Assembly: GCF_023703795.1 (NCBI RefSeq)
Contig: NZ_CP098518.1
Location: 2,108,001-2,172,000 of the forward strand
From: Haloplanus sp. HW8-1
GTDB lineage: Archaea > Halobacteriota > Halobacteria > Halobacteriales > Haloferacaceae
Direction: 5' to 3'
Length of the DNA: 64,000 nucleotides
Under the pieces are notes generated by a model. It was not told the DNA's origin, did not search any database, and was given only the letters and a program-made list of their open reading frames with translations. Positions 18,376-63,627 of this stretch are shown in pieces. Position numbers and translations under genes: made by a program. Numbering within the stretch: position 1 is the first letter of the stretch; every line of letters starts with the position of its first letter.

Positions 18376-18449
18376 GGGCCGGTAGCTCAGTCAGGTAGAG
18401 CGACGGACTCTTAATCCGTCGGTCGGGGGTTCAACTCCCTCCCGGCCCG
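18376..18449 (+). tRNA. tRNA-Lys (anticodon CTT)
   Basis: A cloverleaf of 74 nt. The acceptor GGGCCGG (18376-18382) pairs with CCGGCCC (18442-18448), and G is the discriminator. The anticodon loop CTCTTAA between ACGGA and TCCGT gives CTT. The T-arm GGGGGTTCAACTCCC is canonical. CCA is not encoded and there is no intron. Confidence 0.96.
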
Positions 18450-18527
18450 CTTCTGCGCGACACTACGCGACGAGCAGAGCACGGAGTGAGCGACGCGAGG
18501 AGCCGTGTCGCGCGAACGGTATACGGA

Positions 18528-18595
18528 GGAGTTGAACCAGGGAGTGAAGCGAACGCAGTGAGCGGAACGACCGTGGTTCAACTCCCTCCCGGCCC
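18528..18595 (+). repeat. tRNA-Lys 3'-end copy within a hairpin cassette
   Basis: GGAGTTGAACCA (18528-18539) is the exact reverse complement of TGGTTCAACTCC (18574-18585). The second arm continues as a direct copy of the last 21 nt of the tRNA-Lys gene, up to GGCCC. Just before it is the core AACGACCGTGGTTCAA, also present downstream of tRNA-iMet at 52443-52458. Possible explanations are an attachment-site relic, a small mobile hairpin, or a processing or termination structure. Confidence 0.7.
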
Positions 18596-18702
18596 CTGCA
18601 CCGAACCGCCGAGCGACGACGTAGCCGTGAGGGAACTCGGTAGCCCGCGGCGGGAGGGCGGGTAGTTTTTTGCCGCTTCGTTCCGATCTGAGTCCAACAG
18701 TC

Positions 18703-52158: not shown

Positions 52159-52332
52159 ACCCTCTTCTGTGTCACGGAGTCTCATTAAACGTTCGGGGCT
52201 GCGACCGGGCGCCGATACACCTCCGGACCCCCACGACGGCCGCCGTACGACACCGTGGCCCGCCGGAACCGTTCCGGTCGGCTCCGTCACGATTTCAAAA
52301 CCCTTAACGCCGCCTCGCCGGTAGCGTACAGT

Positions 52333-52407
52333 AGCGGGATGGGATAGCCAGGAGATTCCGCCGGGCTCATAACCCGGAGATCGGTAGTTCAAATCTATCT
52401 CCCGCTA
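52333..52407 (+). tRNA. initiator tRNA-Met (CAT)
   Basis: The acceptor AGCGGGA (52333-52339) pairs with TCCCGCT (52400-52406) and A is the discriminator. The anticodon stem ends in three G-C pairs (CGGG-loop-CCCG) around CTCATAA, which is diagnostic of initiator tRNA, as is the A1-U72 pair used in archaea. No intron is present. Confidence 0.95.
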
Positions 52408-52422
52408 TTTTCGAACGCCTCG

Positions 52423-52470
52423 TAGATTTGAACAGTGAGTGAAACGACCGTGGTTCAAATCTATCTCCCA
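52423..52470 (+). repeat. tRNA-iMet 3'-end copy within a hairpin cassette
   Basis: AGATTTGAAC (52424-52433) is the reverse complement of GTTCAAATCT (52453-52462). The latter continues as a copy of the iMet T-arm and acceptor up to CTCCC (one mismatch follows). The preceding core AACGACCGTGGTTCAA matches the cassette downstream of tRNA-Lys at 18566-18581. Confidence 0.7.
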
Positions 52471-56706: not shown

Positions 56707-56780
56707 GGGCCAATAGCTCAGTCAGGTTGAGCGCTCGGCTGATAACCGGGAGGTCCGCGGTTCAAATCCGCGTTGGCCCA
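56707..56780 (+). tRNA. tRNA-Ile (anticodon GAT)
   Basis: The acceptor GGGCCAA (56707-56713) pairs with TTGGCCC (56773-56779), and A is the discriminator. The anticodon loop CTGATAA gives GAT. The 3' half, GTTCAAATCCGCGTTGGCCCA, is repeated at 58542-58562 and in part at 61555-61568. The gene is therefore the integration site of the elements downstream. Confidence 0.96.
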
Positions 56781-57374
56781 CACCCATTTTCCACGAAACG
56801 TTGCTAATACAATAGATCGTCTTAAACCCTCGTCGTAGACAAATTACACCGCTCAAGTTCGGGATAGCTATGGCAGAGTGAGCGTTGGTTGAGCGGACTC
56901 ACTCGCGCGGTCGTCCTACATCTATGCATTGTCGATTAGTTAGATTCAGTCTACTCTGAACACGAATTTAAAATCGTCTGTCACATCCTATACGGAATAC
57001 TATAGCTTTCGCGAGTGCGTTTTCGGAAGGTTCTTGAATAAAATATCAAGTGCTAAAAAATTTAATTAATGAAATCTACTACAGGCACGTCGTTTATTAT
57101 CACAATATATAAATGCGGTGAACCTTAATTAAGAATGGGTAGCGCTAACGGTGCCAAAATTCCGATTACGTCCCTGACCGCGATGAGGCGGTAACGAAGC
57201 TTTCGTGGACGGGTTCGTGTTCCTGTCGCGGATGGCATGTCGCACCGTGGATGTTACCCACTTTTAGTGCCCGTCAACCCCGACCGCCTCACGATATTAT
57301 TATTATATTATATTTATTGAACCTTTCGGTGAATTTTCATGGGTGAATCTGGTGTATTTTGAGTAGAACATGCA
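56781..57374. other. AT-rich non-coding left part of the tRNA-Ile element
   Basis: About 590 bp without a supported gene. It is strikingly AT-rich (for example ATATTATTATTATATTATAT at 57294-57313) compared with the chromosome. It belongs to the integrated element between attL and the integrase; regulatory or origin sequences are possible, but none is recognised. Confidence 0.55.
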
Positions 57375-63552: not shown

Positions 63553-63627
63553 GGGTTGGTGGTCTAGTCCGGTTATGACGGCTCCTTCACACGGAGCAGG
63601 CCGGCGGTTCGAATCCGCCCCAACCCA
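63553..63627 (+). tRNA. tRNA-Val (anticodon CAC)
   Basis: The acceptor GGGTTGG (63553-63559) pairs with CCAACCC (63620-63626); A is the discriminator. The anticodon loop TTCACAC between GCTCC and GGAGC gives CAC. The T-arm GGCGGTTCGAATCCGCC is canonical. Confidence 0.96.

Follow-up and report, generated by a model that had tools for sequence, protein, structure and literature searches.

Tandem hairpin units behind tRNA genes of Halobacteria: a candidate modular array at tRNA-Lys of Haloplanus sp. HW8-1

The sequence behind the tRNA-Lys(CTT) gene of Haloplanus sp. HW8-1 is, on an assessment that leans only somewhat in its favor, one unit of a non-coding modular array that is anchored at the tRNA gene and turned over through recombination where short flanks are shared. 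Sequence comparison within and between haloarchaeal genomes brings out repeats that match the tail of the host tRNA, tandem units, permuted modules, a first hairpin (HP1) whose sharing is restricted to one tail, and conserved hairpin structure; the recombination route and the folding of the hairpins as DNA are the interpretation that we place on these features. Mobile DNA classically docks at the 3' ends of tRNA genes, and a partial tRNA copy is usually dismissed as an att scar. The tail copies described here appear to be the repeats of a class-wide modular array, in which one module follows the tail and the other does not. If this is correct, such arrays provide a natural assay of short-homology recombination and of DNA hairpin selection in archaea, offer an alternative origin for tRNA-tail repeats, and warn annotators that a tRNA-tail copy need not signal a prophage.

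The arrays at tRNA-Lys and tRNA-Met

The window is the whole 64,000-nt stretch of the HW8-1 chromosome that was analyzed. A preliminary description of it had reported an inverted T-arm, a core and a copy of the tRNA 3' end behind tRNA-Lys, and the sequence is as it described. The 21-nt copy is present and identical to the tRNA tail at 20 of 21 positions, at 18576-18596 rather than 18575-18595. Its hairpin also stands, as part of a larger feature that includes a first hairpin at about 18450-18519; the whole Lys unit occupies 18450-18596. The elements of the locus are as follows.

18376..18449, plus strand: tRNA-Lys(CTT), anchor of the array (ARAGORN and Rfam RF00005, 71.4 bits)
18429..18449, plus strand: tail of tRNA-Lys, T-loop GTTC to position 73, template of the copy
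18450..18519 (approximate), plus strand: HP1, trailer hairpin with outer arms GCGCGACAC / GTGTCGCGC, unit class 'a'
18525..18539, plus strand: left arm of HP2, the anti-T-arm GGAGGAGTTGAACCA, complementary to the copied T-arm
18540..18573, plus strand: HP2 loop, type A (GGGAGTG...AACGACCG)
18551, plus strand: GNA-triloop motif GAACGCAGTGA inside the HP2 loop
18566-18581: core (16 nt)
18574..18589, plus strand: right arm of HP2 (TGGTTCAACTCCCTCC)
18576..18596, plus strand: copy of the tRNA-Lys tail, 20/21, terminal repeat of the array
18597..18643, plus strand: remnant of a second HP1, class 'c'

The same plan had been recognized with another tRNA at 52423, and this locus is indeed a second array, anchored at tRNA-Met.

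52332..52407, plus strand: tRNA-Met(CAT), anchor of the second array (ARAGORN and Rfam)
52387..52407, plus strand: tail of tRNA-Met, template of the copy
52408..52422, plus strand: short first module (TTTTCGAACGCCTCG)
52423..52433, plus strand: left arm of HP2, anti-T-arm (TAGATTTGAAC)
52434..52452, plus strand: HP2 loop, minimal type A
52437, plus strand: GAGTGAAACGA in the HP2 loop, with tandem GA and a GAA triloop
52453..52473, plus strand: copy of the tRNA-Met tail, 20/21

The Lys HP2 hairpin is more stable than shuffled sequences (z -3.0, DNA parameters), and the Met hairpin only weakly so (z -1.65). HP1 of class 'a' is present also at Lys-CTT in the congeners G080 and G244 and at Lys-TTT of the same genome, and class 'c', of which a remnant follows the terminal repeat, is intact at Lys-CTT in congeners G135, G245, G243, G080 and G242. 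The short first module at tRNA-Met clusters with unit 2 at the genome's other tRNA-Met (L277).

The core had been called constant, which holds for AACGACCGT and the upstream GGGAGTG; its GGTTCAA part is T-loop sequence universal to tRNAs, which leaves a shorter constant stretch for the core itself. The exact core matches twice in the window and, with R allowed at one position, five times in the genome (reversed control, 0). Fourteen chromosomal tRNAs of HW8-1 have copies of their own tails downstream, against one each in the upstream and reverse-complement controls. Within the window, no tail copies accompany tRNA-Ile(GAT) (56707-56781) or tRNA-Val(CAC) (63553-63627), and the Rfam 15 covariance models match its four tRNAs and nothing beyond tRNA. 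Two further matches to the type-A pattern elsewhere in the genome, away from tRNAs, were set aside, as arms or a tail copy are missing from them. The motif CGAGCGNAGCGA is not enriched genome-wide in HW8-1 (31 vs 27 in the control), and about 8 of these sites follow a tRNA within 300 bp. The smallest replicon of the genome (contig C3, 200 kb) carries about a dozen extra clustered tRNA genes at 5-15 kb, several of them weak or odd.

Distribution, anatomy and turnover of the units

The expectation that the core would be found next to tRNA genes, rather than mostly elsewhere, was borne out. Its matches are spread over 88 of 242 Halobacteria genomes, which represent 38 of 73 genera, with none for the reversed pattern used as a control, and nearly all haloarchaeal copies lie just 3' of a tRNA gene on the strand of that gene. 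When one locus was taken per genome, a tRNA on the same strand preceded 29 of 30; named genomes gave 126 matches, of which 112 lie within 700 bp downstream of such a tRNA, the remaining 14 being mostly at edges of stretches or contigs, in integrated elements, or chance matches in bacteria. The core accompanies tRNAs for at least 14 amino acids, and the pattern extends beyond it, since one genus that lacks the type-A core has tail copies with other loops at about one third of the tRNAs sampled from it. Many tRNAs have no arrays, and the number and order of units vary widely. Several loop types, tandem arrangement, the second hairpin, and shuffling between species all go beyond the preliminary description. 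A separate case is locus L077 (G173:C1:1470500-1473500), where the reverse strand at about 1010-1570 holds 11 exact core matches with an exact 50-bp period (GGTTCGATCCGTTCCGGAGGGCGGCTCGAATCAGGGAGTGAAACGACCGT), directly downstream of an S-adenosylmethionine synthetase-like gene and with no tRNA found nearby; we read these repeats as a tail array that may have lost its tRNA or escaped from one.

Units are often tandem and measure about 95 bp (median 95.5 bp between tails). From one tail to the next, a unit consists of HP1, a variable trailer hairpin that begins where the tRNA ends and whose sequence does not come from the tRNA, followed by HP2, which comprises an anti-T-arm (against the T-loop and the 3' strand of the T-stem), a loop, and a copied T-arm with the acceptor strand. 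The tail copies extend from G53 to position 73, 21 nt in all. The claim that they track the host tRNA is supported: 111 of 172 copies are identical to the adjacent tRNA tail at all 21 positions, and the converse possibility, copies that mismatch their neighbor, did not materialize, as copy positions 11-21 match the adjacent tRNA with an identity of 0.90 and the tRNAs for other amino acids with one of 0.41 (172 units). The anti-tail tracks the host as well at the T-stem, with pairing at positions 11/12/13 of 0.78/0.71/0.51 to its own tRNA vs 0.55/0.38/0.26 to others; it may derive either from the 5' strand of the T-stem or by complement of the 3' strand, two origins that its frequent 1-nt deletions blur. 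A retro-copy of mature tRNA was rejected as the source, because no CCA follows the tail copies. Inner copies are perfect in 79% of cases and terminal ones in 34%. This decay is a step at the terminal copy, and no age gradient of the kind expected from growth at the tRNA end was found along the arrays; in three-copy arrays the first and second copies are equal and the last is degenerate.

Each of the loop types B, C and D was found at tRNAs of 5-6 amino-acid families, and 111 of 298 loops matched none of the loop patterns used; most class-wide loci were gathered through the type-A core, which biases the loop counts toward type A. A second kind of copy includes no more than the final ~14 nt of the tRNA and is preceded by hairpins in antisense orientation (CGCTCGCGGGAC); examples are L006 (Gly-TCC) and L018 (Ala-GGC) of HW8-1 and L299 and L309 of G006. 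The att sites of SNJ2-type integrases are reported to be ~13-14 bp long, a size that the ~14-nt copies fit.

The arrays differ between congeners. At Lys-CTT, unit orders of a, b-c-b, c, b, d, c-a, b-a and c-d were found between flanks that are 80-94% identical despite the different orders; G135 and G243 are 94% identical, yet have b-c-b and c, respectively. A single HP1 class at Lys-CTT occurs with different HP2 loop types. The Leu-TAA arrays read A-D-A in HW8-1, A-A-D in G240, and three A units in G135, and Lys-TTT and the two Met loci have HP1 classes in common with partner loci of the same tail. Within the genus, where the tail test covered two tail families, Lys and Met, similar HP1 pairs made up 88 of 882 (10.0%) for the same gene in other genomes, 99 of 972 (10.2%) for another tRNA gene with the same tail, and 1 of 1920 (0.1%) for different tails. 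Class-wide, in raw percentages without correction for phylogeny, HP1 similarity is 16.7% for the same anticodon and tail, 16.4% for another anticodon with the same tail, and 4-8% otherwise, and loop similarity is flat at 34-38% in all categories. HP1 sharing is limited to tRNAs with the same tail, and the loops are common to all tails. These comparisons of turnover are between species; among strains of a single species, no recombination event was seen. Because tRNAs with the same tail have similar bodies as well, ordinary gene conversion between paralogous tRNA genes could account for part of the sharing.

In the mechanism that we propose, the tRNA gene would be the fixed first element of the array and the 21-nt tail its repeat, with HP1, the anti-tail and the loop forming the unit between two tails. 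Modules would be exchanged, gained and lost through recombination or template switching at common flanking sequence. HP1 would stay within one tail family because its flanks are the tRNA-specific tail, and the loop would spread to all tRNAs because it is bounded by universal T-loop sequence. Tails would remain matched to their hosts because an event that places the wrong tail on a tRNA gene would be lethal. The hairpins may, more speculatively, fold from single-stranded DNA of the sense strand and form the recombinogenic structure. For the host, such arrays may be neutral or selfish.

Hairpin structure and the case for RNA function

Both hairpins are kept by compensatory changes, as judged from covariation in the aligned units. 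In HP1 of the Met family, 19 pairs are kept, with compensatory changes in 13 of them, and HP1 covariation is 0.49 vs 0.21 in shuffled controls; HP2 shows an excess of 0.161 vs 0.079, and the signal is lost when pairing partners are slid. In HP2, the copy and the arm both track the host tRNA, so that covariation alone cannot separate selection from the copying process. HP1 makes the stronger case for selected structure, because its sequence is not derived from tRNA. The folded units are rods, in which short stems alternate with tandem GA mismatches, capped by GNA triloops. A K-turn reading of the GA block was dropped, as there is no 3-nt bulge.

The strongest of the alternatives, though itself an unlikely one, is that the hairpins function in RNA as 3'-trailer or terminator structures of the pre-tRNA, the arrays serving as serial terminators or processing signals and the downstream copy acting as a decoy that holds the anti-T-arm off the real T-arm. 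The structures lie on the tRNA-sense strand and start right at the tRNA end, they are maintained by compensatory changes, and a conserved U.G pair in HP2 (33/44) is permitted on the sense strand only, all of which speak for this explanation. RNA hairpins prefer GNRA tetraloops. In very stable DNA mini-hairpins, GNA and GNNA loops are the rule (PMC4686876). The units contain 189 GNA triloops on the sense strand and 28 on the antisense strand, compared with 2.5 in shuffles, and their tetraloops are GNYA in 36 cases vs GNRA in 10. The loop types, which follow the DNA rule (GNA/GNYA) rather than GNRA, point indirectly to DNA hairpins of the sense strand; folding of the sense strand would be expected equally for RNA. 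Arguing further against an RNA function, unit number and order are highly variable and many tRNAs have no units, an RNA hairpin has no need of the exact acceptor strand to position 73, and the region has no Rfam match beyond tRNA.

Mobile elements and known array systems

Integrative elements offer the next explanation, which we regard as improbable: the tail copy would be the attR of a tyrosine-integrase element whose interior was deleted, with HP1 and HP2 as its fused ends. The direct repeat of the 3' part of the tRNA that marks an att scar is present, and integrase elements occur at a few arrays only. In two genomes, integrase-bearing elements lie between the tRNA and the array (L129, L187), at tRNA-Val of Haloterrigena salina and at tRNA-Trp of a Halobacteriales MAG. 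In Haloquadratum, a 22-bp partial tRNA duplication has been tied to prophage integration (PMC3119063), which counts for the same explanation, as do gene-bearing intervals that end in HP2 and a tail (L184, L191, L216); a few intervals of 0.8-3 kb between tails hold genes or gene remnants. On the other hand, searches of 2.9 million viral contigs, 50,697 phage records and 72,556 plasmids did not find HP2 at the sensitivity used, although a free element would be expected to carry the scar's sequence as its attP. Twelve core matches in viral contigs were examined as possible virus att sites and rejected, none being an array unit downstream of a tRNA, and the core scan of phage and plasmid records gave no haloarchaeal match. 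The end of the L187 element is not HP2-like and keeps ~14 bp of the tail. For one core to be shared by tRNAs of 14 or more amino acids, tails would have to be switched, and neither the compensated arms nor the tail-restricted sharing of HP1 is predicted by simple scars; the earlier judgment that simple att duplication is insufficient is upheld. Arrays and integrative elements do use common docking sites. At tRNA-Val(CAC) of Natronococcus amylolyticus (L184), about 110-1810 bp behind the gene, an integrase remnant is followed by a partial tRNA-Val that starts in the anticodon loop. A type-B HP2 loop is inserted precisely into the T-loop of this partial tRNA, an arrangement that may directly record the entry of a loop module into a tRNA copy.

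Slightly less probable again is a single-strand cassette system, in which tRNA anchors, DNA-hairpin recombination sites on the sense strand and a tail address that gates the cassettes would be served by a putative enzyme. Lowest in our estimate stands a dedicated integron-like system that arose by convergence, whose recombinase, of tyrosine or single-strand type, would recognize folded single-stranded HP2 and move units as circles between tails. The arrays are modular and anchored, and HP2 has a plan resembling attC, with imperfect inverted arms, a conserved bulged G, a central block of non-Watson-Crick pairs, a variable tip, one favored strand, and GTT at the junction (attC features from PMC2727003). 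Against this, the integron integrase model TIGR02249 scored above cut-off in 0 of 116 Halobacteria genomes, its matches below cut-off being weak ones to general tyrosine recombinases only; no candidate enzyme is co-located, and the exchange rule tracks flanking homology, for which no special enzyme is needed. By eye, DUF433 antitoxin-like genes were seen within or just behind tail arrays in two unrelated genomes, about 130-1100 bp behind tRNA-Pro(CGG) at L122, together with a candidate DUF5615 PIN-like toxin, and behind the Lys-CTT array at L234. They are reminiscent of the toxin-antitoxin cassettes of chromosomal integrons.

Each known system with which the arrays were compared departs from them in one or more of the defining features tested, which is why we regard the tRNA-anchored organization as a new category; the chief threat to that view is an earlier description elsewhere, and none was found in open-access papers. 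Integron arrays share the fixed anchor, tandem modular units whose order varies between relatives, and a hairpin with a bulge and variable tip at the unit boundary. They differ in having IntI, which is not found above cut-off here, and genes, which typical units here lack; moreover, the repeat here is the tail of the host tRNA, specific to each tRNA, and modules reassort within units too. CRISPR arrays likewise have anchored direct repeats, differing spacers and a degenerate terminal repeat; they are defined by a single repeat sequence and spacers that do not recur, next to cas genes. Unlike theirs, the repeat here is a tRNA tail that differs per tRNA, each genome has many small arrays, and the spacers (HP1 and loop) are hairpins that recur within and between genomes rather than foreign DNA.

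Partial tRNA duplications at archaeal att sites of the SNJ2, pNOB8 and SSV types likewise begin within the tRNA and extend to its 3' end, and they lie downstream on the same strand; the units here differ from them in being gene-less, ~95 bp long and tandem with modular order, in having an anti-tail arm, and in sharing constant loop types across tRNAs for 14 or more amino acids. For insertion of casposon or Cas1 type at tRNA 3' ends, the target duplication could follow the host tRNA, but here the anti-tail tracks the host as well. Casposon target duplications are shorter than the tail repeats, and no terminal inverted repeats, genes or Cas1-linked genes were found in the ~95-bp units that were read. 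PATEs and other IS605-type remnants, SMRs, and REP/BIME hairpins are also short non-coding hairpin elements, and PATEs and SMRs are common in one haloarchaeon (PMC3119063). Their insertion sites are unrelated to tRNA tails, and they have neither tail-sized direct repeats nor arms specific to the host locus. IS605-type elements and PATEs carry palindromes near their ends, insert behind a short target motif and leave no target duplication, whereas a 21-nt tail repeat is present at each unit boundary of the arrays.
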